DNA of 29,531 bases from an uncultured bacterium (GTDB taxonomy: Bacteria > Planctomycetota > UBA1135 > GCA-002686595), in the NCBI GenBank assembly GCA_902826945.1, contig CADEGS010000021.1, forward strand, positions 1-29,531. The letters are read 5' to 3'. Shown piece after piece: positions 5,005 to 29,531 of the stretch. The notes beneath the pieces are model-generated. The model was given only the letters and a program-made list of their open reading frames with translations, searched no databases and had not been told where the DNA came from. Position 1 is the first letter of the stretch; each line of letters starts with the position of its first letter. The position numbers and the translations under genes are program-made.

Positions 5005-5011
5005 CCCCTCC

Positions 5012-5106: not shown

Positions 5107-5116
5107 GCCGGGTCGC

Positions 5117-6985
5117 ATGAGCCTGCCGCTCCTCGCCAGCATCGCCGCCCTGTTCCTCGGGCCGGGCCTGTACGCCGCCACGCGCACGCGCGCCTCGGCG
5201 GCGGCGCTCGACGCCTTCGCGCTGGTGGGCGTGATCGGGCTCGTCCTGGCCCACGTCCTGCCGCAGAGCTTCGAGCTGGCGGGCTGGTGGATCGTGCCCG
5301 CGGCGCTGGCGGGCCTGTTCGGGCCGGGGCTCCTGTGCGGCACGCGGCTGCTGGCGGGCAGCGCCTCGGGGCGCATCACGATGCCGCTGGCGCTCTTCGG
5401 GATCGCGCTGCACGCGATGCTCGACGGGGGAGCGCTCGCGGGCGGCGACTCCGAGGACGGGCGGCCGCTGGCGGTCGCGGTCGTGCTGCACCGCCTGCCG
5501 GTCGGCCTCGCGATCTGGTGGCTGGCGCGGCCGCTCTACGGCCTGCGCGCGGCGGGCATCCTGCTCGGCTCGATCGCGGTCTTCACCGTGATCGGCTTCC
5601 ACTTCGGGGCGAGCCTGCTGGCGAGCGCGCCGCAGATGCCGCTGGCGCTGGTGCAGGCGGTGGTCGCCGGGTCGCTCCTGCACGTGGTGCTCAAGCACCC
5701 GCCGCACCCGCCCGCGCACAGCGCGCACGGCACGAGCTCGGCGCGCGTGCAGCACGTGGCCTCCGGGCTGGGCGGGCTGGCCGGGCTCCTGATGCTCTTC
5801 GCCGTGGACCACCGCTGGCACCTCGACACGCACCACGTCGACCGCGCGCAGAGCCTGGGCGTGTTCCTCGACCTGGCGCTGGCGAGCGCCCCGGCGCTGC
5901 TCTTCGCCTACGCGGCGGTCGCGCTCGTGCACGCCTGGGCCTTCGACCTGCGCTCGTTCCTCGGGCGCGGGGGCGCGCTCTCGCAGGCGCTGCGCGGCAC
6001 GATCGCCGGGCTGCCGATCCCGGTCTGCTCGTGCGGCGTGATCCCGATCTACCGCAGCCTGATCCACCAGCGCGTGCCGACGCCGGCCGCGATGTCGTTC
6101 CTGATCGCGACGCCCGAGGTCGGGATCGCGGCCCTGTTCCTGTCCTGGCCGCTGCTCGGCGGCGAGATCACGCTCCTGCGCGTGGGCTGCGCGGCGCTGC
6201 TCGCGCTCGGCGTGGGGCTCCTGGTCGGGCGCGGCGCGCCGGTGCTCGAGCGCCTGCCGGCCGAGGCGGAGGCCGCGCGCGGGCGCGCCGGAGCGCTCGC
6301 GCGCGTGCGGCAGGGGCTCGCCTACGGCTTCGGCGACATGGTGGACGGCACGGCGCCCTGGATCGTCGTCGGCCTCGCCGTGGCCGCGCTGATCGCGCCG
6401 GTGTTCGACGCGGAGACGTTCCTGCGCCTGCCCGACGCGCTCGAGGTGCCGCTCTTCGCGCTGATGGGGCTGCCGCTCTACGTGTGCGCCTCGGGCTCGA
6501 CGCCGCTCGCCGCGGTCCTGATCGCGAAGGGCGTCTCGCCGGGAGCGGCGATCGCGTTCCTGCTCACCGGCCCGGCGACGAACATCACGACCTTCGGCGT
6601 GCTCGGCCGCCTGCACGGCCGCGCGCGCGCGCTGGCCTTCGCCGCGGTGACGGCGGCCTGCACGATCGCGCTCGGCTACGCGGTGAACGGCGTCCTGCCC
6701 GACGGCAGCGGCGTGATCCCGGTCGCGGGCCACGAGCACGGCGCGCGTCCGCTCGAGTCGCTGTCGCTCGTCCTGCTCGGCCTGCTCTTCGCCGCGTCCT
6801 TCGTGCGCCAGGGCACGCGCGGCTTCGTCGGCCAGGTGGTCACGCCCCACGGCCGCGCCGGCGGGCACGACCACGAGCACGACCACGGGCACGAGGATGA
6901 GGGGACGGGCGGCGGCGGCTCGTGCTGCCACGCGCCGGCGGCGATCGCCGCACCCGGGCCGCACGTGACGAGCGGCGCGCGCTGA
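5117..6985 (+). CDS. ZIP-like / ArsP-YraQ-type permease fusion with His-rich tail (metal efflux candidate)
   Basis: The 622-residue polytopic membrane protein has two parts. Residues 1 to about 195 look like a ZIP metal transporter: many hydrophobic helices, HAMLDG (His99, Asp103) where ZIPs have HNxxEG in helix 4, and HRLPVG (His125) where ZIPs have HxxPEG in helix 5. The usual Glu there is Val129. A His-rich linker (HPPHPPAHSAH) follows. Residues about 245-575 match the DUF318/ArsP/YraQ permease family, with PVCSCGVIPIY (Cys304, Cys306), YVCASGSTPLA (Cys457) and LTGPATN. The tail, GGHDHEHDHGHEDE then SCCH, is a probable metal-binding segment. The closest known type is the SO_0444-like Cu/Zn efflux permease, which is family knowledge; the substrate here is inferred. 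ATG 5117 is chosen because TAAGAT lies just upstream. A four-helix membrane protein follows 22 bases downstream. Confidence 0.85.
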   Translation: MSLPLLASIAALFLGPGLYAATRTRASAAALDAFALVGVIGLVLAHVLPQSFELAGWWIVPAALAGLFGPGLLCGTRLLAGSASGRITMPLALFGIALHAMLDGGALAGGDSEDGRPLAVAVVLHRLPVGLAIWWLARPLYGLRAAGILLGSIAVFTVIGFHFGASLLASAPQMPLALVQAVVAGSLLHVVLKHPPHPPAHSAHGTSSARVQHVASGLGGLAGLLMLFAVDHRWHLDTHHVDRAQSLGVFLDLALASAPALLFAYAAVALVHAWAFDLRSFLGRGGALSQALRGTIAGLPIPVCSCGVIPIYRSLIHQRVPTPAAMSFLIATPEVGIAALFLSWPLLGGEITLLRVGCAALLALGVGLLVGRGAPVLERLPAEAEAARGRAGALARVRQGLAYGFGDMVDGTAPWIVVGLAVAALIAPVFDAETFLRLPDALEVPLFALMGLPLYVCASGSTPLAAVLIAKGVSPGAAIAFLLTGPATNITTFGVLGRLHGRARALAFAAVTAACTIALGYAVNGVLPDGSGVIPVAGHEHGARPLESLSLVLLGLLFAASFVRQGTRGFVGQVVTPHGRAGGHDHEHDHGHEDEGTGGGGSCCHAPAAIAAPGPHVTSGAR

Positions 6986-13884: not shown

Positions 13885-13897
13885 TCAGCGCGCGGCC
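13870..13897 (-). terminator. Hairpin overlapping the end of the modular beta-sandwich gene
   Basis: GGCCGCGCGC (13870-13879) pairs with GCGCGCGGCC (13888-13897), giving a 10-bp perfect stem around an 8-base loop that contains the stop codon (13885-13887). No T-tract follows. It could end transcription before the ABC operon. Confidence 0.4.
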
Positions 13898-15813
13898 GGC
13901 TCGATCACGAGGTCGCGCTGCTCGCCCGCGGCCAGGAAGAACGCCTCGCGCACGCGCCCGTCGGCCGAGGCGATCGTGCCCGCCCCCGGGGGCAGCACGA
14001 GGTCGCGCGCGGCGTCGCCGGCCTGCACGCGGGCGACCAGCCGCCCGCCGAGGCGCACCTCGAGCGCCCCGTCCAGCGTCGGATCGGCCACGACCACGCG
14101 CAGCCGCGCGCCCGGCCGCGGCTCGACGAGCAGGCGCTCGCGCGCGGGCGCCTCGCTCGTGCCGTCCTGCGCCGGCTCCGGCGCGCGCACTTCGACCTCG
14201 TCCACGCGCGCCGCGCGTCCGTCGTCCAGCCCGACGAGGAGCGCAAAGCGTCCGGGCGCGAGGCCGGTGAAGCGGAACGCGCCTCCGGGAGCGATGGCCG
14301 CCTCCGCGATCGTCTCCGCGTCCAGGCCGACCAGGCGCGCCACGCCCGTGCGCCTCCCCTCGCCCGTCACCTGGCCGAGGAGCTGCGCCGACGCCGCGCG
14401 CCGCTCGCCGCCGCGCGGCGTGGCGAACATCTCCCGCAGCCACATCCCCCCTGCGCGCAGGGCGACCGCGCTCGTGCTCCCCGCGAGCACCTCGACCTCG
14501 GCCTCGGCCTCGACCGGGGTCACACCCGGGAGCCGGGGCTCGGCGAGGAGGACGCGCCAGCGGCCGGCCGGGACGTCCTCCAGCGCGAAGCGCCCGCGCT
14601 CGTCGGCCTCCGCGTGGCTCAGGCGGGCGCGCGCGAGCGTGGGCCCCGCCGCCGCCGACGGGCACAGCCACACGAGCGCCCCCGCCAGCGCGATGCCCTC
14701 CGCGGTCGTGACGACCCCCTCCACGCGGCCCTCGCCGAGCGTCCACACGACCTCCTGTCCATCCTCGCCCGTCACGAGCAGCGGCGGACCGGAGAGCACG
14801 CGCGCGCGCTCCCCGTCGCGCTCGGGAACGTAGACGCCTCCCGGCTGGAGCCCTTCGAAGAGCGCCACGCCCGAGGCGTCGGTGATCGCCGACGGCGCGA
14901 ACGGCCCCGCCGTCTCGCCGGCGCCGCCCAGGCCCGCCGGCTGCAGCCGCAGCGTCTCCCCGGCGAGCGCGGCGCCCTGCGCGTCGAGCAGGCGCAGCGC
15001 GACGCTCGCCTGCGGATGCAGCAGGACGAGCGCGGCGCTCGCCTCGTCCGCGTGCCCGGGCTCGAGCACCACGGCGGAGGGCCAGTACCCGCTGCGGCCG
15101 ATGCGCACGACGGTGCCCGCGTTGCCCTCGACGCGGAAGACGCCCGCGCCGTCGTCGGGAAGAGCGAGCGAGCGCGGGCTCTCGAAGGGCGCGGGATGAG
15201 GCAGGCCCTCGAGCACGGCGCACGCGACGCCTTCGCCCGTGCGCGCGTCGACCGCTCGCCCCACGTAGACGAGCGGCGCGCCGGTGATCAGGAACACGAC
15301 CTCGCGCCGCTGCCCGGCGCGCACGTCGCGCACCGTGTCCTGCACGGCGTCGCGACCCTCGTCGCCCGGCAGCACGACGCGGTAGCTGCCGGCGGGGACG
15401 CTCAAGCTCGCGCGGCCCCGCTCATCGGTGACGCCGGCCGCCGCCGGCGTCGCGCCGCCCCCTTCGCGCAGCGCGTGGACCGGCCAGTCGAGGAGCGGCT
15501 CGCGCGCGGTCCCGGCCAGGACGAGGACGTCGAGGTGCGCGTCCTCCGGCGCGGGCGCGGCCGGAGCGAGCGCCGCGCGCTCGGCGGCGGGCCGGGCGGG
15601 CGCGAGCGCGCGCGCCTCCGCGCCGGGCGCCGGCGCGAGCGCGTCGCCCGGGATCGCTCCCGCCGCGTCGAGCTCGTGCGCTGCCGCCTCCGGCGGCGCG
15701 ACCTCGCCGCGCGAGGCGACCGCGCGCGAGGCGAGCCGCGAGCCTCCCGCGAGCAGGACGAGGGCGAGCGCCGCGAGCACCACGGCCAGGGCGAGCAACG
15801 CGCGCGAGCGCAT
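13885..15813 (-). CDS. Signal-anchored modular beta-sandwich protein (carboxypeptidase regulatory-like repeats), paralog A
   Basis: The 642-residue protein has an N-terminal membrane segment (ALLALAVVLAALALVLLAGG, residues 5-24) and an Ala/Pro-rich linker to residue 92. About six beta-sandwich modules follow, near 95-150, 183-250, 270-330, 363-430, 480-540 and 568-640. Each has strand patterns such as VTDERGRASLSVPAGSYRVV, ADERGRFALEDVPAGRWRV and GGAFRFTGLAPGRFALLV. This is the usual look of CarboxypepD_reg-like/Cna-B-type domains, which serve as stalk or adhesion modules. No peptidase motif is present. It is homologous to the protein at 20304-22466: both share a VVWTLG strand, an FRF-x-x-x-x-PGR[FY]-x-L turn and a related final module. 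It is divergent from 15915 and has a TAGGCT hexamer 8 bases before its ATG. It is probably anchored in the cytoplasmic membrane facing outward. Confidence 0.8.
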   Translation of the reverse strand: MRSRALLALAVVLAALALVLLAGGSRLASRAVASRGEVAPPEAAAHELDAAGAIPGDALAPAPGAEARALAPARPAAERAALAPAAPAPEDAHLDVLVLAGTAREPLLDWPVHALREGGGATPAAAGVTDERGRASLSVPAGSYRVVLPGDEGRDAVQDTVRDVRAGQRREVVFLITGAPLVYVGRAVDARTGEGVACAVLEGLPHPAPFESPRSLALPDDGAGVFRVEGNAGTVVRIGRSGYWPSAVVLEPGHADEASAALVLLHPQASVALRLLDAQGAALAGETLRLQPAGLGGAGETAGPFAPSAITDASGVALFEGLQPGGVYVPERDGERARVLSGPPLLVTGEDGQEVVWTLGEGRVEGVVTTAEGIALAGALVWLCPSAAAGPTLARARLSHAEADERGRFALEDVPAGRWRVLLAEPRLPGVTPVEAEAEVEVLAGSTSAVALRAGGMWLREMFATPRGGERRAASAQLLGQVTGEGRRTGVARLVGLDAETIAEAAIAPGGAFRFTGLAPGRFALLVGLDDGRAARVDEVEVRAPEPAQDGTSEAPARERLLVEPRPGARLRVVVADPTLDGALEVRLGGRLVARVQAGDAARDLVLPPGAGTIASADGRVREAFFLAAGEQRDLVIEPAAR

Positions 15814-15821
15814 CGGGTGGG

Positions 15822-15827
15822 AGCCTA
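15822..15827 (-). promoter_or_regulatory. Putative -10 element TAGGCT, leaderless-type spacing
   Basis: TAGGCT on the minus strand ends 8 bases before ATG 15813. No Shine-Dalgarno sequence lies between. It is one half of a divergent pair with TAGGGT at 15902-15907, so both beta-sandwich genes may be expressed from this 101-bp region. Confidence 0.45.
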
Positions 15828-15901
15828 GCACGGGCGGCGGCGGACGGAGCCGCGGGCACGCGTTCGGCGGAGCGGGCGGCTCCGGCTTCGCCCGAGGGGG
15901 G

Positions 15902-15907
15902 TAGGGT
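15902..15907 (+). promoter_or_regulatory. Putative -10 element TAGGGT, leaderless-type spacing
   Basis: TAGGGT ends 7 bases before ATG 15915, with no Shine-Dalgarno sequence between. A GTG at 15906 overlaps the hexamer and is rejected as the start on this ground. No clear -35 box was found. Confidence 0.45.
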
Positions 15908-15914
15908 GGTGCCC

Positions 15915-18131
15915 ATGCGGACGCTCGGCTCGCGCGCGGCGGTGACCATCGGGCTGGCGCTGATCGCCTGGCTCGCGAGCCGCGCGCTCTCGGCGCCCGC
16001 GTCGATGCGCGGAGCCGATGTGCCTGCGCCCATCTCCTCTGCGGCGCACGCGGGCTCCTCGTCACGAACGCCGATCGCGGCGGATCCGCCCACGAGCGTC
16101 GCCAGCGACGACGCGCCGTCGACGCTCGCGTGCGCCGAGCTCGCGGGCTCGCGCACGCCGCTCGCATCGCCGGCCGTGGACGACCTGCTCGACACGACGC
16201 CGGTCGAGGTCGTGGTCCGGACGAGCGCCGTCGCGACGCCCGGCGGCCCGTTCCCTCCGCTGCCCGCGCGCGCTCGCATCCAGGTCGGCGTCGCGCGCCG
16301 CGAGCACGGGCTGCACCCCGCCGAGCGCGGCGTCCCGAGCACGGAGCTCTCCGTCGACCTGCCCGGAAGGCAGACGCTGACGCTCGACGTGCCGCGCGCC
16401 TGGCTCGCGAGCCCCGAGCGGATCTCGCTCTGGGGACGCTCGCTCGAGCCCTGGACGACCGGTCGCCACGCCTTCGCCGACCTGCGCGGCGGCGCGACGC
16501 CTGCGCCCCTCGAGCTGCGCGTCGAGCAGGGCGCACGCGTTTCCGGCCGCGTGCTCGACGCGCGCGGCGCTCCCGTCGCCGGCGCATGGATGGAGCTCCT
16601 GAGCGGCGCGCGTCCGGGCCTGGTCGCCGCGGCGGCGGAGAGGCTCGGGCTCGCGCACGGCCTGCAAGTCGTCGCGAGTGGCCGGAGCGACGAGCGCGGC
16701 GCGTTCGAGCTCGGCGCGTCGCGCTGGCCCGGCTCCGGCGGCCTGCACGTTCTCGCGCGCGCGGGCGGCTTCGGGAGCGCGCTCGCCTCCGGTCTCGCGC
16801 TCGCCGCCGAGCCCGAGCCGCTCGTGCTCGTGCTGCGCGGCGAGGGCACGTTGCAGGGCGTGCTGCTCGATCCCGGCGGTACGCCCGTCCCCGACCGCAG
16901 GCTCGTCGCGCTGCCGGCGGGCCAGGAAGGCCTGCCCGCCCACGAGCGCCGGGCGCGCGAGTGGTCCGGCGGGCTCGCGGCGAGCGAGGTGCGCACGGAC
17001 GAGGAAGGCCGCTTCGCCTTCGCCGGTCTCGTGCCGGGGCGCTACGACCTGCGCGGACCGTCGAGCGAGGGAACCGCCTTGCTCGCGCCCTCCGTGGAGA
17101 CCGGCGCGTGCGACCTGCGCCTGGTGACGAGCGCGACGCGGCTCGTCGTGGACGTGCTCGACGAGCGCGGCGCGCCGGTCGTGCTCGATCGCTGGGGGGT
17201 GCTCGAGCGCTGGCGACGCCGCGGGCCGCTCGTCGTCTGCCGGCCCGACGGGGAGCGGGACGGCCGCCCGCTCCCCGCGCTCGTCGCCGAGCGGGTCGAG
17301 GAGAACCGCGCGGTCTTCACGCTCGCGCGCGGGACGGGCTACACCCTGTCGCTGCTCTCGCCCGACCATCCGCTCCTGGAGGAGCCGGTGGCGCTGGAGG
17401 AGGGCGCGTGGACCGTGCGCCGCACGCTGCGGCTCTCCGCCGCCACGGCGCCGGCCGAGCTCGCGCTGCGCGTGACGCTCGAGGACGGGAGCAAGAGCCG
17501 GCTTCGGCCGCGCGTCGAGGTGCGCACCGCGGGCGGCCAGCTCCTCGACGAGGAGTTCGTCGCGCTCGGCGCGGAGCTCCTCGTCGCGCTCCCCCCGGGA
17601 CGCTACGCCGTGCGCGTCGAGCCGTCGTTCGGGCCGCCCGACGACTGCCTGCTCGCGAGCGCGGACGAGCCGAGCGCGGGGTCCGCGCAGGTGGCCCTCC
17701 TGCGCGCGCAGCCGGCCTGCGCGACGGTCGAGCTCGCCGCCGGCGAGCGACGCGAGCTGTCGATCGCGCTGCCGCCGGCGGGCGTCGTGCACGCGACCCT
17801 CGCGGGCCTGCCCGAGCGCGCCCTGCTCGATCCCGCCGCCGAGACCATGGCCCGCGCGGGCTGGGGCGAGGTGTGGCAGGAGGATGCGGGGACCGCCTTC
17901 GGCCTGGTCGTCCACCTGCGCACGGCGAGCGGCGTCGAGCTCGCTCCGGAGGACGTGCTGCTCTTCTCGTGGACGCTCGCGTGCCGGCGCGGCGACGCGC
18001 CGTCGCTGTGGCTCGACGCGCTCGCGCCGGGCGACTACGAGCTCGTCGTGCGCGTGGCCGAGCGCGGCGAGCGCCGCGCCGCCGTGCAGGTGCGCGCGGG
18101 CGAGACGAGCGAGCTCACGCTGCGCTTCTGA
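15915..18131 (+). CDS. Signal-anchored modular beta-sandwich protein, paralog B
   Basis: This protein has 738 residues. An N-terminal hydrophobic segment (AAVTIGLALIAWLASRALS) acts as signal or anchor, and a Ser/Ala/Pro-rich linker follows to about residue 90. Several beta-sandwich modules come next. Recognisable units include VSGRVLDARGAPVAGAWMELL, LQGVLLDPGGTPVPDRRLVAL with RTDEEGRFAFAGLVPGRYDL, and a last unit LDALAPGDYELVVRVAERGERRAAVQVRAGETSEL. These are CarboxypepD_reg-like/Cna-B-like folds; no catalytic motif is seen. It has the same architecture as the genes at 13885 and 20304 but less obvious sequence identity. It is divergent from paralog A and convergent with the Gly-rich beta-helix gene, from which it is separated by a perfect 17-bp hairpin. 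An outer-envelope structural or carbohydrate-binding role is inferred. Confidence 0.8.
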   Translation: MRTLGSRAAVTIGLALIAWLASRALSAPASMRGADVPAPISSAAHAGSSSRTPIAADPPTSVASDDAPSTLACAELAGSRTPLASPAVDDLLDTTPVEVVVRTSAVATPGGPFPPLPARARIQVGVARREHGLHPAERGVPSTELSVDLPGRQTLTLDVPRAWLASPERISLWGRSLEPWTTGRHAFADLRGGATPAPLELRVEQGARVSGRVLDARGAPVAGAWMELLSGARPGLVAAAAERLGLAHGLQVVASGRSDERGAFELGASRWPGSGGLHVLARAGGFGSALASGLALAAEPEPLVLVLRGEGTLQGVLLDPGGTPVPDRRLVALPAGQEGLPAHERRAREWSGGLAASEVRTDEEGRFAFAGLVPGRYDLRGPSSEGTALLAPSVETGACDLRLVTSATRLVVDVLDERGAPVVLDRWGVLERWRRRGPLVVCRPDGERDGRPLPALVAERVEENRAVFTLARGTGYTLSLLSPDHPLLEEPVALEEGAWTVRRTLRLSAATAPAELALRVTLEDGSKSRLRPRVEVRTAGGQLLDEEFVALGAELLVALPPGRYAVRVEPSFGPPDDCLLASADEPSAGSAQVALLRAQPACATVELAAGERRELSIALPPAGVVHATLAGLPERALLDPAAETMARAGWGEVWQEDAGTAFGLVVHLRTASGVELAPEDVLLFSWTLACRRGDAPSLWLDALAPGDYELVVRVAERGERRAAVQVRAGETSELTLRF

Positions 18132-20303: not shown

Positions 20304-22466
20304 CTAGCGCTCCCCGAGCACGAGCTCCTTCGACTGGCCGGCGACGAGCGTCGTGCTCGCCACGAGCTTCCCGAGGAGCGTCTCGATCGTGCAGTGGCCC
20401 GCGGGGAGCACGAGGTCCACCGGCGTGCTGCCGACGTTGCCGATCCAGGCGGTGCAGTCGTCCACGCGCGCCCGGAGGCTGCCTTCGGGCGCGGTCTTCG
20501 CCCGCAGGCGCAGCCGCGCGCCGGGCTGCAGCTCGATGGAGAGCGGCGGCGGGGGTGCACCGGCTTGCACCTCGACTTGGACCGTTCGCCCACAGCGGCC
20601 GTCCTCGAGCAGGACGGCGAGGCCGTAGCGCCCCGGCGACGCATGCTCGAAACGGAAGGAGCCGTCGGCCTTGACTCGGACGCAGGAGGTCGAGAATCCC
20701 TCGCGCGGGGAGATCCACGCGGTGCCCGCCGCTCCCTCCGCGCCGATGACCGAGCCCTCGATCGCGACGCCGCTCGGCAGCACGATGCGCAGGCCATCGG
20801 TCCCGGCGGCCACGTCGGGGAGGCTCGTGGATCCCGAGGGTCCTGTCCCGGACGCCAGGAGCTGGTACCGCCCGGGCAGGAGCGGACCGAGCGCGAACTC
20901 GCCCTTGCGGTTCGTGCCGATGTTCGCGTCCATCGGGCCGATGGCGAAGACGACTCCCTGGGCCGCGTTCCCGGCCTCGTCCTCGAGGCGGCCGCGGATC
21001 CACAGGCCCGCGCCCGGCGCGCGCAGCACGACGCGCTTCTCCCGCTCGCCGCCGAGGATCTCGACGCGCTCGGGCGGCAGCCCCGCGCTCAGCTCGTTCT
21101 GCGGCGCGAGGCCGACGTCCCATGTTCCCGGCCCGATCCCGGGGAGCGCGAAGGCGCCGTCCTTGTCGGACGTCGCGACGGCGACCGGCTGCGTGCCTGC
21201 CAACAGGCGACCGACGTCGGGCTCGTCGGGTAACGCGGCGTAGGCCCAGACGACCTGTCCCTCGACCGGCTTGCCGTCCGGATCGAGGACGCGCCCCGCG
21301 ATCGTGCAGCTCCCGAGCGTCCACACGACCTGGCGCTCCTCGCCGGCCGCCATCGTCAGCGGGGGCGCGAACCCCGTGCGCCGCACGCCCTCGACGAGCA
21401 CCGCGGGCACGAGCGAGCGGTCCGTCGGGGGCTCGAGCCAGGCCAGGCCGCTCTCGTCCGTGGGAGACCGCGCGGCGACCTGCTCGTCGCCGAGCTCGAA
21501 GCCCTGGACCAGGCCGCTCGTGTCGAGCAGGAGCTCGGCCTCGGCGCCCGCGAGCGCGCGACCGTCCGCGCCTCGCACCAGGGCGCGCAGGCGCGCGAGC
21601 GGCCGGAGTCGCACGAGCGCCGCCGTGCTCTCCGTCTCGTTCCCCGGACCGACGCGCACGCCCGCGCTCTGGTGGCCGCTCGCGGAGATGCTCGCGTCGA
21701 ACCGCTGCCCCGCGGGCGCCGATCCCTGGAGGAGGCCGCGCCCGTCGCTCGCGCGCTCGCTCCACTCGCGCCTCAACGACGGCGGAACGACGATCAGGCC
21801 CCGGAGCCAGGACTCGTCGGGAAAGGCGAGCGTCGCCCCCGCGATCGGCTCCTCCGTGATCGCGTCGATGACGCGGCAGACGAACGCGACGCGCGCCTCG
21901 GTGGAGACGTGGAAGACGAGCTTTCGCTCCTCCCCGGCGGCGAGGTCGAGCACGAGCTGGCCCTCGTCGGCCGCGGGCGGCGCGGAGCCCAGCGGACAGA
22001 CGACGCGATACGAGCCGGGACGGAACCGCAGGACCGTCCGTCCGTCGGTGCCGGTGTGGAAGGCCGACTCGTGCGTTCCCCAGACGGGATCCATGCCCCA
22101 CTCGATCGCCTTGCCTCCGGGATGCTCGAACGCGAGGAAGCGCCGGTATGGGACGGGGTGCTCGTCCTCCGCGGAGAGGACGAGGACCTCGATCGTTCCG
22201 TCCACGGCCCTGGCCCTGCTGCGCCGATTCGCCTTCTCCGCCTTCGGGTCGCGCGGCGCCGCCGCGGGCTCGTCCGCCGCGGTCTGCGCGACGCGGGCCG
22301 GCGCGTCGGCGGTGCCGGCCAGCACGGCGGGAGCCGAGGAGGGCTCGTCCGCGGGCGACGCCGGAGCCGCGGCCTCGTGCGTGCCGGCGCTCCCGCGGAG
22401 CAACCACAGCGCGAGTCCCCCTCCTGCGATCGCCACGGCGAGCACGGCGAGCAGCCGCGGGCGCAT
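20304..22466 (-). CDS. Signal-anchored modular beta-sandwich protein, paralog C
   Basis: This 720-residue protein has an N-terminal membrane segment (LLAVLAVAIAGGGLALWLL, 5-23), an Ala/Pro/Asp-rich linker to about 85, then repeated beta-sandwich modules. It aligns with paralog A (13885-15813). The VVWTLG strand followed by [IV]-[AE]-G-[RV]-V is shared. So are a SFRFEHASPGRYGLAVLLEDG unit and a final ELQPGARLRLRAK unit ending in a DLVLPAGHCTIE strand. Several modules read like CarboxypepD_reg, for example GRVLDPDGKPVEGQVVWA. Paired Cys in the C-terminal part could form disulfides outside the cell. No enzyme motif is seen. TATCCT lies 7 bases before ATG 22466 and no Shine-Dalgarno sequence is present, so the transcript may be leaderless. 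Confidence 0.8.
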   Translation of the reverse strand: MRPRLLAVLAVAIAGGGLALWLLRGSAGTHEAAAPASPADEPSSAPAVLAGTADAPARVAQTAADEPAAAPRDPKAEKANRRSRARAVDGTIEVLVLSAEDEHPVPYRRFLAFEHPGGKAIEWGMDPVWGTHESAFHTGTDGRTVLRFRPGSYRVVCPLGSAPPAADEGQLVLDLAAGEERKLVFHVSTEARVAFVCRVIDAITEEPIAGATLAFPDESWLRGLIVVPPSLRREWSERASDGRGLLQGSAPAGQRFDASISASGHQSAGVRVGPGNETESTAALVRLRPLARLRALVRGADGRALAGAEAELLLDTSGLVQGFELGDEQVAARSPTDESGLAWLEPPTDRSLVPAVLVEGVRRTGFAPPLTMAAGEERQVVWTLGSCTIAGRVLDPDGKPVEGQVVWAYAALPDEPDVGRLLAGTQPVAVATSDKDGAFALPGIGPGTWDVGLAPQNELSAGLPPERVEILGGEREKRVVLRAPGAGLWIRGRLEDEAGNAAQGVVFAIGPMDANIGTNRKGEFALGPLLPGRYQLLASGTGPSGSTSLPDVAAGTDGLRIVLPSGVAIEGSVIGAEGAAGTAWISPREGFSTSCVRVKADGSFRFEHASPGRYGLAVLLEDGRCGRTVQVEVQAGAPPPPLSIELQPGARLRLRAKTAPEGSLRARVDDCTAWIGNVGSTPVDLVLPAGHCTIETLLGKLVASTTLVAGQSKELVLGER

Positions 22467-22473
22467 GGCGATC

Positions 22474-22479
22474 AGGATA
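22474..22479 (-). promoter_or_regulatory. Putative -10 element TATCCT, leaderless-type spacing
   Basis: TATCCT (minus strand) ends 7 bases before ATG 22466. Just upstream, GCCCCG (22480-22485) and CGGGGC (22495-22500) form a 6-bp dyad with a 9-base spacer abutting the hexamer, a possible operator. Confidence 0.45.
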
Positions 22480-22566
22480 GCCCCGTCCCTCGGCCGGGGC
22501 GGAGCGGACCGCCGGAGACGCCCGATCCGCGACGAAGGCGCGCGGAGTCGACGCGGGCCAGCACGC

Positions 22567-23169
22567 TCAGCGGCCGCTTCCGTCCCCGTCGCGGACGGGC
22601 GCGGACGCCGGATGCGCCGGCGGCGGCTCACTCGCCTCCGCACCCGCCGCCGCGAGCGCGTCCTGCCAGCGGGCGCGCTCGCGCGCGTCGAGCGTGCCGG
22701 TGGCGGAGCGCAGCAGGCGGGCGTCGGGGTCGAGGAGCAGCGCGAGCGGGACGCGCGCCAGGCGCTCCTCCCAGGCGGGCGTGAGCGCGGCGGCGTGGAG
22801 CAGGCGGCCGCCTGCGAGGCCGTGGCGCGCGAGGAAGCCGCGCGCGGGGGCGTCGTCGTCGCGCGTGAGGAGCATGAGCTCGAAGGGCGTGCGCTCGTCG
22901 GGCGTGCCGTCCGGGGCGACGAAGGGCTCGAGCAGCGCGCGCCAGCTCTCGGCCGCGTCGTCGCAGCGGCCGCAGGAGGTCGAGAAGGCGAGGAGCAGCG
23001 CGGGCCGGCCGGCGGGACGCCAGGCCAGCGGGCGCGCGGCCTCGTAGCAGGCGAGCGTCTCGAGCGGGGCGTCCGTCGAGGCGCCGTGGATGGGCCCGCG
23101 CGCGCCGCGCCAGCCGCCGCTCGCGACGAGCGCCAGGCCGAGGCCCAGCGCCAGCGCGAGCAGCAGCAC
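22567..23169 (-). CDS. Membrane-tethered thioredoxin-like protein
   Basis: The protein has 200 residues from GTG 23169. An N-terminal hydrophobic helix (LLLALALGLGLALVASGG) anchors or exports it. The thioredoxin-like domain shows ALLLAFSTSCGRCDDAAESW, with the redox pair Cys66-x-x-Cys69 at the start of the first long helix. It also has a V-Pro141 cis-proline followed by LALLLDPDARLLRSATG, as in TlpA/ResA-type proteins. An acidic, Pro-rich tail follows. It may keep extracytoplasmic thiols reduced or help disulfide formation in neighbouring Cys-containing exported proteins, which is inference. The frame stays open to a CTG at 23253 that overlaps the FG-GAP stop (CTGA). Starting there would add 28 residues with two Arg before the helix, a better topology signal, so the true start is uncertain. 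Confidence 0.78.
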   Translation of the reverse strand: MLLLALALGLGLALVASGGWRGARGPIHGASTDAPLETLACYEAARPLAWRPAGRPALLLAFSTSCGRCDDAAESWRALLEPFVAPDGTPDERTPFELMLLTRDDDAPARGFLARHGLAGGRLLHAAALTPAWEERLARVPLALLLDPDARLLRSATGTLDARERARWQDALAAAGAEASEPPPAHPASAPVRDGDGSGR

Positions 23170-23249: not shown

Positions 23250-25001
23250 TCAGAAGCCGATCTTCAGGTCGATGGCGTTCACGAGCTCGGGCCCCGCGCC
23301 GCCGCCGATCACGGGCTGCGAGTAGACCTGCAGCCCGGCCAGCGCGGCGACGAACGGGATCGCGAGCGAGTGCGTCGCGACGCCGCCGACGGGCACCTGC
23401 ACGTCGACGAACTGCGTGGCGCTCCCGAGGTCGACCAGCACCTCGCCCAGGGGCGGCAGCAGGAACTGCGCGGGCTGGTCCACGCCGAGCAGCGCGCTGA
23501 TCGTCGCGCCCGGGTGGCCGCCGACGTCCACCGTGCCGACCCACGTGCGCCCCAGGCGCGGGTCGTCGTCGGTCGCGTAGGCGAGCGCGTTCGCGCCGCT
23601 GCCGTTGCGCACGCTCGCCGACGCCTGCTCGTCGCCGAAGAGGCGCAGGACCCAGATCGCGCCCGCGTCGGCGCCCGCGACGTCGTCGCCCGCCGCGCCC
23701 ACGACCAGGTCGCCGAGGCAGTCGGCATCGAGGTCGCGCACGTAGGCCGGCGCGTCGAAGGTGTCGCCGGGGAGCAGCAGGAACTGCAGCATGCCGGCGT
23801 TGAAGCCGCCCTGCTTGTCGGTGACCAGGCGCTCCTTCACGACCGTGCCGTCGCCGGCGAGGAAGAGCTCGTAGAAGCCGCCGACCGCGCCGATCGAGCT
23901 GTTGCGGTTGGGCATGCCGGCGGCGAGGTCGCGCACGCCGTTGCCGTCGAGGTCGCCGAGCGCGGTCAGCTCGGTGCCGAGCCGGTGGTTCACGAAGGGC
24001 ATGCCGCCGAAGCCGGCCAGGCCCTGGCCGATCTCGACCTTCGACTTGGCCATCCCGCTCGCGTCGAGGAAGACGAGGAACAGCACGCCCTCGTCGGGCG
24101 CGGCCACCTGCGTCGGCGGCGAGCCGGGCGCGGGCACGACGAAGTCGATGCCGTTCGTCAGCGGCGCGCCGATCGCGAGCTCGCCCACGCCGTCGCCGTC
24201 CATGTCCTCGAGGCCCTCGACCGCGGTGCCGAGCGCGTCGCCGTTCGAGAGCCCGGCGCCGAAGTTGCCTTCGGTCCCGCTGAGCTTCTGCTCGCCCGTG
24301 ACCGAGCCGCTCGCGTCGAGGAAGAGCACCCAGGCCGCGCCGCGGTTCGAGCCGCCGTCGTCGTCTCCCGGCGCGCCGACCGCCAGGTCGGGGATCCCGT
24401 CGCCGTCCACGTCGCCCAGGCCGCCGACCGAGCTCCCGAAGCGGTCGCCCGCGTCGAGCGCTCCGGCGAAGCCGCCGACGCCCGCCGCGATCTCCTGCGC
24501 GGCCGTCACGGTGCCGCCCGCGCTCAGGAAGAGCACGAAGAGCTTCTCGCCCTCCGTCCCCACCGCGAGCTCGTCGCGCCCGTCGCCGTCGAGGTCGCCG
24601 ATCGCGTCCACCGCCGTGCCGAGCTGGTCGCCGTCGGCGAGCGTGCCCGCGAAGCCGCCCGCGGTCGCGCTGATCTTCTGCTGCCCGATCACCGTCCCGT
24701 TCGCGCCGAGGAACAGGATCCACACCGCGCCGCGGCTCGCTCCGCCGTCGTCGGTGCCGGGCGCGCCGACGGCCACGTCCTGGATGCCGTTGCCGTCGAG
24801 GTCGCCGACCGCGGCCGTCGCGTCGCCGAAGCGATCGCCCGGCGCGAGCGGGCCGGCGAAGCCGCCGAGCCCGGCGGTCACGCGCGCAAAGGCCTTGACC
24901 TTGCCGTCCTGGTCGGGGCCCTGGGCCAGCGCCGCGCCGGCGAGGAGGGAGAGCGCCGCGAGGCGCACGGGGAGTCGGGGAACACGCCGAGAAAGGTCCA
25001 T
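23250..25001 (-). CDS. Secreted FG-GAP beta-propeller protein
   Basis: The 583-residue protein has a signal peptide (1-26, basic start, ending AALA). It is followed by six FG-GAP repeats, beginning near 56, 124, 185, 253, 338 and 412. Each carries a calcium-loop motif such as GDLDGNGIQDVAVGAPG, GDVDGDGIPDLAVGAPG or EDMDGDGVGELAIGAP. The sixth (RDLDADCLGDLVVGA) is degenerate. Such repeats form integrin-like beta-propellers that bind calcium and ligands outside the cell. Residues about 464-583 form a C-terminal beta domain (VRNGSGANALAYATDDDP to LAGLQVYSQPV and AIDLKIGF). It resembles the end of the Gly-rich beta-helix protein and may be a surface-sorting domain. AGGAG lies 7 bases before ATG 25001. 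The thioredoxin-like gene follows directly, probably in the same transcript. Confidence 0.9.
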   Translation of the reverse strand: MDLSRRVPRLPVRLAALSLLAGAALAQGPDQDGKVKAFARVTAGLGGFAGPLAPGDRFGDATAAVGDLDGNGIQDVAVGAPGTDDGGASRGAVWILFLGANGTVIGQQKISATAGGFAGTLADGDQLGTAVDAIGDLDGDGRDELAVGTEGEKLFVLFLSAGGTVTAAQEIAAGVGGFAGALDAGDRFGSSVGGLGDVDGDGIPDLAVGAPGDDDGGSNRGAAWVLFLDASGSVTGEQKLSGTEGNFGAGLSNGDALGTAVEGLEDMDGDGVGELAIGAPLTNGIDFVVPAPGSPPTQVAAPDEGVLFLVFLDASGMAKSKVEIGQGLAGFGGMPFVNHRLGTELTALGDLDGNGVRDLAAGMPNRNSSIGAVGGFYELFLAGDGTVVKERLVTDKQGGFNAGMLQFLLLPGDTFDAPAYVRDLDADCLGDLVVGAAGDDVAGADAGAIWVLRLFGDEQASASVRNGSGANALAYATDDDPRLGRTWVGTVDVGGHPGATISALLGVDQPAQFLLPPLGEVLVDLGSATQFVDVQVPVGGVATHSLAIPFVAALAGLQVYSQPVIGGGAGPELVNAIDLKIGF

Positions 25002-25220: not shown

Positions 25221-25226
25221 TATCAT
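25221..25226 (+). promoter_or_regulatory. Putative -10 element TATCAT of the sigma factor operon
   Basis: TATCAT ends 6 bases before GTG 25233, the only in-frame start near the beginning of the sigma factor. No Shine-Dalgarno sequence is present, so a leaderless transcript starting at or near the GTG is likely. No clear -35 box was found; autoregulation by the encoded sigma factor is possible but unproven. Confidence 0.45.
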
Positions 25227-25232
25227 CGAGCG

Positions 25233-25898
25233 GTGTCCGTGCTGCGCGTACCCCCGCCAGGCGGGAGCCACGTCCCGACCACGGCCGGCGGACGCGTGCC
25301 CGCGCCGGGACCGGCGGCGCACGATCCGGTCGAGGGAGGCGCGCCGGCGCACGACGCCGACCGGCTGCTCGTCGAGCGCGCGCGCGCGGGCGAGGCCGCG
25401 GCGGTGGACGCGCTCGTCGAGCGGCTGGGCTGCGCGCGGCGCTTCGTGCTGCTCCACAACCAGCGCTCGGGCGGCGCGCTCGGCGCCGACGAGGTCGAGG
25501 ACACGGTCCAGGAGACCCTGTTCGCGGTCTGGCGCAAGCTCGACCGCTACGCGGGCCACGGCTCGCTCGAGGCCTGGGTCTGGCGCTTCGCGCAGCTCGA
25601 GTTCCTGACGCGCCTGCGCACCCGGCGGCGGCTGCAGCGGCTCGACGACCAGCAGCTGCCCGATCGCGAGGCGCCCGAGCTCGTCCCGCACGAGCGGCTG
25701 TACCGCTCGCTGGAGCGCATCCCCGAGGCGTACGCGAGCGTGATCCGCCTGAAGCACCTCGAGCCCGCGACCTTCGAGGAGGTCGCCGCGCGCCTCGCGA
25801 TCCCGGTCAACACCGCGAAGACGCGCTACTACCGCGGCCTGCGCCTCCTGCGCCAGATCCTGCAAGGCGCGCAGCCCGAGCTGGAGGGCGGGCCGTGA
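25233..25898 (+). CDS. ECF-family RNA polymerase sigma factor
   Basis: The 221-residue protein starts at GTG 25233. About 40 N-terminal residues are Pro/Gly/Ala-rich and unusual for the family. Region 2 follows: ADEVEDTVQETLFAVWRKLDRY (core polymerase binding) and SLEAWVWRFAQLEFLTRLRTRRR (-10 recognition). Region 4 is LYRSLERIPEAYASVIRLKHLEPATFEEVAARLAIPVNTAKTRYYRGLRLLRQIL, with a helix-turn-helix at the VAARL to TAKTRYYR part for -35 recognition. There is no region 1.1 or 3, as expected of ECF factors. It is coupled by GTGA (25895-25898) to a membrane anti-sigma factor and then to a TPR-CHAT protease gene. This implies that an envelope signal releases the sigma factor. The subgroup is not assigned. 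Confidence 0.93.
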   Translation: MSVLRVPPPGGSHVPTTAGGRVPAPGPAAHDPVEGGAPAHDADRLLVERARAGEAAAVDALVERLGCARRFVLLHNQRSGGALGADEVEDTVQETLFAVWRKLDRYAGHGSLEAWVWRFAQLEFLTRLRTRRRLQRLDDQQLPDREAPELVPHERLYRSLERIPEAYASVIRLKHLEPATFEEVAARLAIPVNTAKTRYYRGLRLLRQILQGAQPELEGGP

Positions 25899-26578
25899 GC
25901 GAGCACGACGCGGAAGCCCACGACGAGGCGCTGGAGCGCGTGCTCGAGGCGACGGAGCCGCGGCGCGCGTTCGAGGGCTCCCCGCTCGCGGGCTGCGCGG
26001 CGTGCCGCGAGGAGCTCGAGGACCTGCTCGGGCTGACGGGCGAGCTCGACGGCCTCGGCCGGAGCGAGCGCGACGGCCTGCGCGAGGGGCTGGCGCTCCC
26101 CGGCGTCCTGCCGGGACGGGCCGAGGCCGCGCTGCGCGCGCACGCGGCGCGCGGCGCTGGCGAGCGCCGGCGCACGATGCGGCGCGTGATCGGCCTGGCC
26201 GCCGCGCTCGTCGCGGCGAGCGCGCTCGTGCTCGTGCTGCGCGCGCGCGAGGGTCCGCTTCCCGATGGCGGCTTCCTCGGCGACGATGCCGAGACAGCGC
26301 AGCCCGAGGGTGCGGTCGAGGACTTCTCCTCCTTTTCCTGGACCGACGCGCTGCCGGCCGAGGGCTGGTTCCGCGTCGTCGTCTACCGCGAGGATGCCGC
26401 AGAGCTCGCGTCGATCGCCGAGAGCCCGCGCCTCGCGGAGCCCCGCTGGAGCCCGCCTCCCTCCCTGCACGCCTCATGGCCCGACTCGATCGTCTGGAAG
26501 CTCGAGATCCATCGCGGCTCCGGCCCCGGCGACCTCGCCGGCAGCTCGCTGCACCGGGCCTGGCGCTCCTCGCGCTGA
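25895..26578 (+). CDS. Single-pass membrane anti-sigma factor with extracytoplasmic domain
   Basis: The 227-residue protein starts at GTG 25895, overlapping the sigma stop (GTGA). Residues 1-95 are cytoplasmic and acidic, with GCAACREEL (Cys34, Cys37). This is the CxxC part of a zinc anti-sigma motif, but the His expected four residues before Cys34 is Pro. Residues 96-116 form a single membrane helix after RRRTMRR. Residues 117-227 face outward. A segment of about 65 residues (FSWTDALPAEGWFRVVVY, then WSPPPSLHASWPDSIVWKLEI) resembles fibronectin-III-like sensor modules in some anti-sigma factors, which I infer. The last 34 codons overlap the start of the CHAT gene in another frame. It should hold the sigma factor at the membrane until cleaved or remodelled. 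Confidence 0.82.
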   Translation: MSEHDAEAHDEALERVLEATEPRRAFEGSPLAGCAACREELEDLLGLTGELDGLGRSERDGLREGLALPGVLPGRAEAALRAHAARGAGERRRTMRRVIGLAAALVAASALVLVLRAREGPLPDGGFLGDDAETAQPEGAVEDFSSFSWTDALPAEGWFRVVVYREDAAELASIAESPRLAEPRWSPPPSLHASWPDSIVWKLEIHRGSGPGDLAGSSLHRAWRSSR

Positions 26579-29109
26579 GCGCCGCGGCGCGCGCGCTGCC
26601 CCAGGAGGAAGACCTCGCCGCGCGCTGGGCGCGCGAGTGGACCGTGCTGCGCGAGGAGGTCGCGGCGCACCCCGCCGAGGAGCAAGCGGCGGAGGCGGAG
26701 CGGCTGCACGCCTGGTACGGCGCGCGCGCGCAGGAGCTCGTGCGCGCGCACGAGCTGCTCGTGAACCGCGCGCGCGAGCTCGCGTCCACGCCTGCGTGGA
26801 CGCCCGAGCTCGAGCGGCAGCTCGCGTCTTGGCGGGCGGCGGGCGACCAGCTCGCCGCGCTCGGGCGCGCGAACGGCGTGGTGCAGATGGCGATCGCCGA
26901 GGGCGAGCTCTTGCGCCGCGCGGGACGGCTCGACGAGGCCTGCGCGCGGCTCGAGGACGTCCTGGAGAGCCAGCCGCGCGCGACGCTCGCGCTCCCCTAC
27001 CTGCTCTTGCGCCTGGCCGAGTGGGAGCGCGAGCGCGGCGCGCCCTCGCGCGCGCTCGCCTGGCTCGAGCGCTTCGAGGGCCTGGAGCTCTCCGAGCGCG
27101 CGCGCGCCGACCTGGAGAGCCACGCGCTGCTCGTGCGCGCGCAGACGTGCCTCGACCTCGGCCTGCCCGACCGCGCCGGGCCGGACGCGCGCGAGGCGCT
27201 GCGCCGCGCCGAGGAGCGCCCGCGCGCCAGCGCGGCGGACGCGCTCTTCCTGCTCCAGGCGCGCAACGTCGCCGTCGCGCTGACGAAGGCCTCGGGCGAC
27301 CACCCCGGCGCGATCGAGGCGAGCGAGGGCTGGCTCGCGCAGGACGAGCTGTACGCGACCCATCCGGCCGAGCGCGCGATCCTCACGGGCATGCTCGGCA
27401 CGTCGCTCGTCGCCACCGGGCGCGCGGAGGCCCAGGAGCGCGGCGCGGCGCTCCTGCGCGAGGCGCTGCTCGCGCCGCTGCCCGCCGCCGTCGCCGCGCA
27501 CGCCCGCTGCGCGCTGGCGCGGCTCGCGCTCGCGGCGGAAGCATGGGACGAGGCGCGCGCCGAGCTCGCCGCCGCGCGCGCGGCGCTCGGCACGGGGACG
27601 CCCGAGCGCGAGGGCGCCGCGCCCGAGGCGGAGGCGAGCGTCGTCGCCTTCGAGGCGCGCCTGGCGCGCCTGGAGGGTGCCGCGCCCGACGTGCTGCGCG
27701 CGCGGCGCGCGGACCTCGAGCGCGCGCTCGACGCGCGCCTCGCGGCCTGGTCGCGCGTGCCCGCGCGCGCGGGCGGCACCGCCTTTCTGCTCTACGGACA
27801 GCGCCGGCAGCTCGCGGGCGAGCTGGTCGAGCTCGACCTGGCGCTCGATGGCGCGGAGGCGGCGCTCGCGCGCGTCGAGCGCTTCCGCGCGCGGCTCGCG
27901 CCCGAGCGCGTGCGCGCGCACGCGGAGGGGACGCCGCTCCCGCCGCGCGGGCGCGGGGTGCTCGTGTTCTTCCCCGCCGCGGACGGCTCGCACGCGTTCG
28001 CGGTCGATGCGGACGGCGTGCGGCACGTCGCGCTCGCCGGCGAGGTGACGCTCGAGGAGGCGCGCCGCGCGTACGAGTCGCTCTTGCTCGGCGGGCTGCC
28101 CGAGGACGAGGGGCTCGCGGCGCTGGCCGTGCGCGAGGAGCGCCGGCTCGCCGCGCGCCTCGCGGAGGTGCTCCTGCCGGGCACGCTGGGCGCGCGCGTC
28201 GCGTCGTGGAAGGAGCTCGTCGTCGTCGGCGCCGACCTGCTGGGGCCCGTGCCGTTCGCGTGGCTCCCCGCGGGCGAGCACGCCTACCTCGGCGCGCACG
28301 TCGCGCTGTGCGAGGCCGCCTCGCTCGCCGACGCGGTCGCGCCCGCGCGCGAGGACGCGGCGCGCTACGCGAACGACGCCGTGCTCGTCGCCGGCGTGAC
28401 GCCGGCCGAGAGCGTGTGCGCGGCGTGGCCGAGCGTGGGGCCGCTGCCGCGTCCCGACGCGCTCGTGCGCGCGCTCGGCGGGCTGTGGACGCCGGAGCGC
28501 ACGCGCGTCCTGTGCGGGCCCGACGCGACGCTCGACGCGCTCGCCGCGGCGGGCTCCGCGCGCGTGCTGCAGCTCCTCGTGCACGCCGTGCAGGAGCCCG
28601 AGCGCGAGCGTCCGGCCGCGCTCGTGCTGGGTCCCGCGCCCGGCACCGACGGCCTCGTGCGCTACGAGACCGTGCAGGAGTCGCTGCCGGCGGCGGGCCT
28701 CGTGATCCTGACCGCCTGCCGCTCCGGCCAGGGGACGCTGCGCAAGGGCGATCCCGGCGCGACCGACCTCGGCGGGGCCTGGCTCGCGCACGGCGCGCAC
28801 GCCGTCCTGCAGACCCGCGCCGACCTCCGCGTGCAGCGCGCCGAGGAGCTCTCGCGCACGCTGCACGAGGACCTCGCGCGCGGCCGCTCGCCCGCCGAGG
28901 CGCTGCGCCGTGCGCGCGCAGAGCTGGCCCGGCACGCGGGCGACCGCGCGCCCTTCGAGGACGGCCTGCTCGAGCTCGTCGGCCGCGGCCACGACCCCGT
29001 GCTGCAAGGAAGAGGGGCGCGAGCGATCGGACCGCTCGCGCCCCTGTGCGGCGCGTTCGTGCTCGGCGCGCTGGTCGCGCTCGCGGCGACGCGCCGGCGC
29101 GCCGGCTAG
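26476..29109 (+). CDS. Exported, membrane-anchored TPR-CHAT caspase-like protease
   Basis: The 877-residue protein starts at ATG 26476. Its N-terminus is a long basic n-region, then a hydrophobic core (LAAPGLALLALSAAARA), so it is probably exported. Residues about 100-500 form helical repeats of TPR type (AIAEGELLRRAGRLDEACARLEDVL, for example). The CHAT domain covers about 560-840: a VVVGADLLGPVPFAWLPAG strand-turn, catalytic His703 in LLVHAVQEP and Cys748 in VILTACRSGQG, then AWLAHGAHAVLQTRADL. Both dyad residues are present. Residues about 853-871 (LCGAFVLGALVALAA) form a C-terminal membrane helix ending TRRRAG, giving a domain held outside the cytoplasm. CHAT proteases cut after defined residues in target proteins; the linked anti-sigma factor is the obvious candidate. 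The frame overlaps that gene by 103 bases. Confidence 0.87.
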   Translation: MARLDRLEARDPSRLRPRRPRRQLAAPGLALLALSAAARALPQEEDLAARWAREWTVLREEVAAHPAEEQAAEAERLHAWYGARAQELVRAHELLVNRARELASTPAWTPELERQLASWRAAGDQLAALGRANGVVQMAIAEGELLRRAGRLDEACARLEDVLESQPRATLALPYLLLRLAEWERERGAPSRALAWLERFEGLELSERARADLESHALLVRAQTCLDLGLPDRAGPDAREALRRAEERPRASAADALFLLQARNVAVALTKASGDHPGAIEASEGWLAQDELYATHPAERAILTGMLGTSLVATGRAEAQERGAALLREALLAPLPAAVAAHARCALARLALAAEAWDEARAELAAARAALGTGTPEREGAAPEAEASVVAFEARLARLEGAAPDVLRARRADLERALDARLAAWSRVPARAGGTAFLLYGQRRQLAGELVELDLALDGAEAALARVERFRARLAPERVRAHAEGTPLPPRGRGVLVFFPAADGSHAFAVDADGVRHVALAGEVTLEEARRAYESLLLGGLPEDEGLAALAVREERRLAARLAEVLLPGTLGARVASWKELVVVGADLLGPVPFAWLPAGEHAYLGAHVALCEAASLADAVAPAREDAARYANDAVLVAGVTPAESVCAAWPSVGPLPRPDALVRALGGLWTPERTRVLCGPDATLDALAAAGSARVLQLLVHAVQEPERERPAALVLGPAPGTDGLVRYETVQESLPAAGLVILTACRSGQGTLRKGDPGATDLGGAWLAHGAHAVLQTRADLRVQRAEELSRTLHEDLARGRSPAEALRRARAELARHAGDRAPFEDGLLELVGRGHDPVLQGRGARAIGPLAPLCGAFVLGALVALAATRRRAG

Positions 29110-29531
29110 TTGCCGCCGCCCGGCGGCGGGACGGGGTCGGGCGGGATGCAGAAGTCGGGGACGTCGGGGATGCAGATCACGACCGGCGTGATCTCGCGCC
29201 CCTGGGACATCGGCGGCGAGGGCGTGCCGCTGGCGATGGGGACGGCCATCGCCTCGAGCTCCATCGGCGGCATCGGCGGGTCCGGGTAGGCGAGCAGCAG
29301 CGCCTCGTCGACCTCCTGCACGAGGCCGAGCGCGAAGAGGGCCGAGGGGCCGGCGGCGACGACGCTCCCGCCGGACTCGAGCGCGGCTCGCACGACGAGG
29401 TTGTAGACCAGGTCGAGCCCCGTCTCGGCCGGCCCGAGCTCCGCCACGAGCAGCGCCTTGCGCTGCTCGTCCACCTCGAAGGTCGCGTGCACGAGCGCCT
29501 GCGGGTCGGACTCGGTCTCGAGATCGGGCTG
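29106..29531 (-). CDS. Unknown protein with Pro-rich C-terminus (5' truncated by window edge)
   Basis: The frame is open from the window end and 141 residues are visible. The first 75 look globular (VHATFEVDEQRKALLVAELG, then DLVYNLVVRAALESGGSVVAAG and LFALGLVQEVDEALLLAY). The rest is Pro/Met-rich (DPPMPPMELEAM) and ends in CIPDVPDFCIPPDPVPPPGGGN, with two Cys. A GTG at 29492 could start a shorter protein, but the upstream codons remain open and acidic, so a longer protein is more likely. I recognise no family. It converges on the CHAT gene, and the two stops share the palindrome CTAG (29106-29109). Confidence 0.6.
   Translation of the reverse strand, partial: QPDLETESDPQALVHATFEVDEQRKALLVAELGPAETGLDLVYNLVVRAALESGGSVVAAGPSALFALGLVQEVDEALLLAYPDPPMPPMELEAMAVPIASGTPSPPMSQGREITPVVICIPDVPDFCIPPDPVPPPGGGN

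Follow-up and report, generated by a model that had tools for sequence, protein, structure and literature searches.

A 29,531-nucleotide stretch of DNA from an uncultured bacterium (contig CADEGS010000021.1; the whole stretch is termed the window) was found to carry three overlapping genes, for an extracytoplasmic function (ECF) sigma factor, an anti-sigma-like protein and a TPR-CHAT protein, together with a convergent fourth gene of an FG-GAP family (Table 1). Computation established the gene order, its conservation in relatives, an intact His/Cys dyad in the CHAT domain and the predicted fold of the CHAT protein. The interpretation of these data considered most likely is that the genes encode a split version of the switch represented by DdvA, which by the titles of its PDB entries (8rot, 8rw5) is a transmembrane anti-sigma factor with TPR-CHAT in one chain. 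The CHAT protein would then make the first cut in the anti-sigma factor at the envelope, and a probability of about 0.55 is given to this reading.

In the mechanism that we infer, which covers the anti-sigma function, the cut site, the order of the cuts and the role of the FG-GAP protein, a single-pass anti-sigma factor would hold the ECF sigma factor at the membrane, and the C-terminal helix of an exported TPR-CHAT protease would anchor the enzyme at the outer face of the inner membrane. A signal, possibly arriving via the neighbouring FG-GAP protein, would trigger the protease, and the CHAT domain would cut the anti-sigma linker at a conserved Leu-Gly pair just outside the membrane. Site-2 (M50) and cytoplasmic proteases would remove the stump and the sigma factor would be freed; M50 proteases were found in all seven relatives' genomes searched, and also in 14/14 controls. 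A fuller version is put forward tentatively: a four-gene cassette, of which a single genome has about 20 divergent copies, whose CHAT protease, exported and separase-like, makes the first cut in the anti-sigma factor at a fixed Leu-Gly, an FG-GAP propeller serving as private sensor or ligand.

The product of the first gene is an ECF sigma factor, both sigma2 and sigma4 being recognised over the Pfam cut-offs (Sigma70_r2, PF04542, 6.9e-9; Sigma70_r4_2, PF08281, 1.2e-8), with a TIGR02937 score of 57.2 bits (cut-off 42.9). The sigma and anti-sigma-like genes share 4 bases, and the CHAT gene, read from the ATG at 26476, overlaps the anti-sigma-like gene by 103 bases, the choice of this start codon being uncertain; coding was supported in all three frames by codon-position G+C, once the CHAT values, which were computed with a one-base shift, are rotated. 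An earlier, preliminary description of this DNA had named the three overlapping genes, and its inventory agrees with the coordinates and with the Pfam sigma and CHAT matches. It overlooked the convergent fourth gene, from 29106 onward, and the Leu-Gly motif.

Table 1. Coordinates of the sigma/anti-sigma/CHAT/FG-GAP gene set and of its features in the window.
Feature	Position	Strand	Description
ECF sigma factor gene	25233..25898	+	GTG start, stop 25896-25898, 221 aa, regions sigma2 and sigma4
Anti-sigma-like gene	25895..26578	+	GTG start, 227 aa, N-terminal CxxC region, one transmembrane helix, linker, sensor-like domain
Codons of Leu128-Gly129, putative first cleavage site	26276..26281	+	Linker between transmembrane helix and sensor-like domain
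TPR-CHAT gene, protein with export-like N-terminus	26476..29109	+	877 aa, His703/Cys748, C-terminal transmembrane helix
Signal-peptide-like N-terminus of CHAT protein	26476..26601	+	Arg-rich start, then hydrophobic stretch
C-terminal transmembrane helix and basic tail ATRRRAG	29035..29106	+	KD17 2.31
Fourth gene, FG-GAP family	29106..29531	-	C-terminal 141 aa, runs past window end; convergent; family profile match

The conservation of the gene order was followed by a profile search of 294 genomes from the phylum of genome G001, evenly sampled from a larger group, with a maximum of three candidates scored per genome. CHAT profile matches at E <=0.001 were present in 139 of these genomes and were mostly partial; strong matches (E <1e-60) occurred in 15/294 genomes at 30 places, some of them cut by contig ends. 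The locus set comprised 53 regions, locus L001 and the window, that is, 55 loci with 56 CHAT frames of at least 300 residues. A sigma gene lay directly upstream on the same strand of 49 of the 56 frames, and 48 had the full order of sigma, anti-sigma and CHAT. Frames without a sigma gene in loci that begin at contig ends (L001, L054, L061, L064 with two frames, and L068) were left out of the count of 50 frames having upstream sequence, so that the triad was present in 48/50, the window's included. The sigma and anti-sigma profiles had been trained on the first 32 loci, and among the 23 loci fetched later, which were picked by their CHAT match, the triad was found in 22. The start of the anti-sigma gene overlapped the sigma stop by four bases in 41 of 48 triads, the script having chosen the start nearest that place, and in the window, as in many relatives, the CHAT gene overlapped the anti-sigma gene. 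The arrangement is thus beyond chance, and the preliminary description, which had made its interpretation depend on a CHAT gene standing beside this pair in relatives, is upheld on that point by the 48/50 frames. Two relatives of the CHAT protein were named Planctomycetota or Planctomycetes bacterium, a collection scan returned one locus, and a plasmid search for CHAT gave no match.

The set was found to be multiplied in some genomes. A deeper count in nine of the 294 genomes at E <=1e-20 gave 21 CHAT matches in genome G193, where they represent 20 loci because one locus was read as two pieces. G059 had 8 matches, G036 had 7 and G293 had 5, with 1 to 4 in each of the other five. About 20 divergent sets (L040, L041, L043 and L069-L085) were located in the 8.4 Mb of G193, where the anti-sigma profile, which was run on six genomes, matched 21 times: each of the 20 CHAT loci had one of these matches beside it, and the remaining match, a weak one, lay elsewhere, both counts coming from the part of the candidates that was scored. 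Four sigma/anti-sigma-like loci with no CHAT gene (L126-L129) were seen in G017, G059 and G156. At one of these, L128:7387-8175 (-), a single frame matched both the sigma and the anti-sigma profile and may be a fusion.

The pairing bears on a reading in which the CHAT protein acts as a regulon effector, for instance in envelope damage or self-killing, and takes no part in sigma release. ECF operons often hold their own targets, which would suit an effector. TPR-CHAT proteins have been implicated in gasdermin activation and cut Csx30, according to an excerpt of PMC9729208. However, the position of the CHAT gene is fixed, its partnership with the anti-sigma genes is one to one in the 20 sets of G193, and PADLOC gave no defence match for the three proteins; an effector role is therefore judged decidedly improbable.

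The CHAT domain (PF12770) was recognised at residues 557-823 of the third protein with an E-value of 2.5e-31 and 109.6 bits (cut-off 24). The numbering of the dyad as His703 and Cys748, proposed earlier, holds in the sequence, and both residues were kept in 52/52 CHAT domains of the family, although in 31 relatives (set A5) the domain was 27-38% identical to that of the window. Domain score and dyad together place the protein among the CHAT proteases, and peptidase activity is predicted. The label TPR-CHAT, given in the preliminary description, stands for its CHAT part by PF12770 and for its TPR part by the AlphaFold2 (AF2) model, in which a TPR array is visible (mean pLDDT 83.7), and by the TPR families that Pfam matched in some of 21 relatives scanned; the Pfam scan of the window's own CHAT protein did not find TPR.

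It could be that control of the anti-sigma factor comes from binding of the TPR-CHAT protein, with another protease doing the cutting. TPR arrays bind proteins, RseB acts on RseA by binding, and DdvA joins the two parts in one chain. The universal retention of His and Cys at such low identity counts against this alternative because a pure binder would not need the dyad, and the alternative is considered improbable.

The placement of the CHAT protein was explored through its hydrophobic segments. An N-terminal segment with KD11 >=1.7, a threshold set after a first look at these segments, was present in all 50 frames with an upstream anti-sigma match, versus 112 of 451 equally long internal stretches, and at the stricter KD11 of 1.9 the figures were 46/50 versus 56/451. 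A C-terminal helix (KD17 >=1.5 within the last 60 residues) was found in 35 of 47 complete members, versus 37 of 451 internal 75-residue stretches. Behind the C-terminal helices of the family stand tails rich in Arg and Lys, and by the positive-inside rule these tails place the CHAT domain outside. The protein is thus predicted, by sequence only, to be exported with its CHAT domain outside the cytoplasm. The probable signal peptide and C-terminal membrane helix of the preliminary description are seen as a hydrophobic segment after an Arg-rich stretch and as a helix followed by ATRRRAG. The side of the membrane on which the CHAT domain lies had been named beforehand as a point on which the idea could fail, and the sequence-based topology puts the domain outside the cytoplasm. 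At locus L087, the signal segment of the CHAT protein ends in a lipobox-like Cys and a C-terminal helix is absent.

The middle protein has a single transmembrane helix at about residues 98-114 and a sensor-like domain with the pattern F.W ... W.P ... I.W. RseA_N was matched by Pfam in one of 18 relatives (E 0.014), and the family profile gave weak matches in PDB to 3hug (E 0.027) and RsiW (E 1.1). The PDB listing names 3hug a membrane protein, which we take to be the anti-sigma factor RslA. Position, a degenerate CxxC, the transmembrane helix and the weak profile matches to 3hug and RsiW together suggest that the protein is an anti-sigma factor, and it has the class I traits of one transmembrane helix and a gene adjoining that of the sigma factor. 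A homologue search of the protein database returned one match, identical to the window's protein. A single-sequence structure reached a mean pLDDT of 48.1 and was set aside.

The proposed cut site was examined in the alignment of the anti-sigma family. At window residues 128-129, Leu was present in 41/48 and Gly in 40/48; the aligned pair was LG in 34 of 49 members, and a wider class, with Leu, Met or Ile in the first place and Gly, Ser, Asp or Ala in the second, covered 45 of 49. Counted without alignment at residues 6-35 past the transmembrane stretch, LG was found in 36/49 proteins, lying 9-22 residues beyond that stretch, compared with a mean of 13.7 (standard deviation 3.0) and a maximum of 24 in 2000 shuffles. 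It was also the commonest residue pair in the linker region, the runner-up pair occurring in 23/49. The looser pattern (Leu, Met or Ile plus Gly, Ser, Asp or Ala) was less telling, with 48 versus 38.0 in shuffles.

Published cleavage sites offer a parallel. In bacterial gasdermins, caspase-like proteases cleave behind a Leu or an Arg, and in one case only the Leu and the adjacent Gly were essential, as given in the consulted section of PMC9612521; the Runella gasdermin is cut after L247 (PMC9079055, excerpt). Of the Csx30 proteins, the Scalindua one is cleaved after L407 (PMC9729208, excerpt); in a second, the cut falls between 427 and 429 and is prevented by deletion of M427 (PMC10028731, excerpt). 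The Leu-Gly in the juxtamembrane linker fits, by analogy, with this caspase-like cleavage after Leu, the gasdermin enzyme not being stated in these excerpts to be of the CHAT family.

Clustering of up to three flanking genes per side gave one dominant family, the FG-GAP family, with 39 members. Its profile, built from 39 of the eventual 48 members, detected a family gene near CHAT in 48 of the 52 loci with observable flanks; L065, L067 and L089 end too early to be scored, and the profile did not find the gene at L043, L063, L073 and L091. The gene lay directly downstream and convergent in 39 loci, second downstream on the other strand in five, downstream on the same strand in two and upstream in two, and was thus on the strand opposite CHAT in 44/48. 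The fragment in the window, which was outside the training of the profile, matched with an E-value of 2e-8 (5e-7 in a second scoring). FG-GAP_3 was matched by 7/7 members scanned (E <=6.3e-4, five above the Pfam cut-off), and many of the proteins open with a signal-peptide-like segment, others having uncertain starts. Family genes (E <=1e-10) stood beside a CHAT locus in 17 of 19 cases in G193 and in 4/4 in G156, and the association is therefore more than a background of FG-GAP genes. The profile found none at the four sigma/anti-sigma loci that lack CHAT; the presence of the family therefore tracks that of the CHAT gene, which would be expected of a sensor, a ligand or a substrate, and the gene may encode a sensor or a second substrate. 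A second FG-GAP repeat protein with a signal peptide is encoded at about 23253-24990 (-) in the window, divergent from the sigma gene and weakly alike to the fourth gene (E 0.0011).

The main rival to cleavage of the anti-sigma factor arises from this family: the substrate of the CHAT protease would be the FG-GAP protein or some other protein of the envelope, and the sigma/anti-sigma pair would merely time the expression of the set. The presence of the gene in 48/52 loci, its CHAT-adjacency in G193 and G156, its absence by profile from the four CHAT-less loci and the retention of CHAT and FG-GAP at L045 without an anti-sigma gene are all in its favour. Yet it is the anti-sigma gene that CHAT overlaps, whereas the FG-GAP gene is mostly on the other strand, DdvA joins TPR-CHAT to an anti-sigma factor, and the LG motif sits in the anti-sigma linker. 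On balance this rival is considered unlikely. Cleavage of the anti-sigma factor and of the FG-GAP protein are compatible, and both can be true.

Several observations weigh against cleavage of the anti-sigma factor by CHAT. The window's anti-sigma-like protein gave nothing over cut-off in Pfam, so that a recognised anti-sigma domain was not found in it. The FG-GAP gene is present almost as regularly as the anti-sigma gene, and its product may be the real substrate. Locus L045 (5892-9223 +) has the sigma, CHAT and downstream FG-GAP genes but no anti-sigma gene between sigma and CHAT, and the divergent member L091 has no triad in its 2.4 kb of upstream sequence, sigma-profile matches lying elsewhere in that locus. 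Twelve of the 47 complete CHAT proteins show no clear C-terminal helix, and these would be soluble or anchored in another way. Conservation is as high at a Pro close to the membrane (40/49) and in the sensor domain at its Pro-x-Gly, and the LG motif is therefore not alone. The four CHAT-less loci, judged by eye, show IG, LG, RG and, in the one without a transmembrane helix, no motif; LG therefore does not strictly accompany CHAT and could have a structural role, four loci being too few to decide on such a tie. Distances of the sensor domain and CHAT correlate weakly (rho 0.21), and over all distance matrices in 45 triads (sigma, anti-sigma domain, sensor domain and CHAT) rho was 0.08-0.23, too weak for statements on partner choice. 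None of five ECF promoter patterns exceeded shuffles upstream of the 49 sigma genes, where a 6-mer list had a top z of 4.4.

Elsewhere in the window, a permease gene at 4805-6985 (+) matched PF03773 (ArsP_1, 1.8e-35), and carboxypeptidase regulatory-like domains (PF13620) were present in two large genes at 13885-16587 (-) and 20304-22643 (-). An Rfam scan of the window gave no match at gathering cut-offs.

As a whole, the earlier interpretation is partly supported, by the conserved neighbourhood, the topology and the fit of the Leu-Gly site, and it had overlooked both the fourth gene and the nearer precedent of DdvA. If the CHAT protein does cut the anti-sigma factor, an enzyme of the caspase/separase fold would join the proteases known for the first cut in anti-sigma control, and would act as a signalling protease outside the cytoplasm. 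The switch is directly testable through its Leu-Gly site, its dyad and its FG-GAP partner, and the twenty sets in one genome would be a natural series for the study of partner specificity.

Parts of the arrangement are known already from Craspase, from DdvA and from the ECF54 group with its CHAT neighbours. In the excerpts of the literature that the search covered, no description was found of an exported CHAT protease that is a protein of its own and is encoded with sigma, anti-sigma and FG-GAP genes, and an earlier mention in ECF classification or planctomycete papers is possible. The same search gave no paper combining CHAT domain, sigma factor and planctomycete, and none combining site-1 protease, anti-sigma factor and caspase-like; among the papers searched, the Craspase work alone combined CHAT domain, ECF sigma factor and anti-sigma factor.

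Craspase, of the type III-E CRISPR systems, consists of Csx29 (TPR-CHAT), Csx30 and CASP-sigma/RpoE, and is a known case of a TPR-CHAT protease that cleaves the inhibitor of a sigma factor. It is RNA-activated, whereas the protease described here is predicted to be exported. No CRISPR-like direct repeats (at least 24 bases, within 120 bases) were present in the 29.5 kb window, Pfam found no cas family among 16 window open reading frames scanned, and PADLOC gave no defence match for the sigma, anti-sigma-like and CHAT proteins. The earlier remark that there is no CRISPR component agrees, within the window, with the repeat search, and membership of type III-E was rejected on the repeats and the PADLOC result. 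The ECF54 sigma group has CHAT-domain proteins in its gene context, as here, but no anti-sigma factor (section 3.3 of PMC8999054), whereas an anti-sigma-like gene was present in 48 of the 49 sigma-CHAT loci.

In the RseA/DegS/RseP cascade of sigma-E, as outlined in the excerpts consulted, a membrane anti-sigma factor is cut first outside, after which RseP and ClpXP act on it. DegS is a trypsin-like PDZ protease, whereas the initial cut here would be made by a cysteine protease of the caspase/separase fold.

DdvA is a nearer precedent than Craspase, both by sequence and as a membrane protein, and the analogy with Craspase drawn in the preliminary description survives as one precedent. Foldseek ranked DdvA first by E-value (1.1e-14 and 2.5e-14), and by structural Z score Craspase and separase stood above it. 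A CHAT-only profile searched against PDB sequences also gave DdvA first, at 1.1e-12 (Craspase 4e-3), with both His and Cys in the alignment; DdvA was found by this profile only and was not among the matches of the other PDB sequence searches. The DdvS/DdvA pair is from Myxococcus xanthus, and the signal for the inactivation of DdvA was unknown in 2015, according to an excerpt of PMC4374960. Shared with that system are an ECF sigma factor, its putative cognate inhibitor and a TPR-CHAT region, and the TPR-CHAT fold and sequence similarity agree with the DdvA type. Unlike DdvA, the anti-sigma and TPR-CHAT parts lie on two separate genes, in the window and throughout the 48 triads. If the proposed cleavage is true, Craspase and DdvA, together with the CHAT proteins that adjoin ECF54, would be forms of one theme, in which TPR-CHAT governs an inhibitor of a sigma factor.

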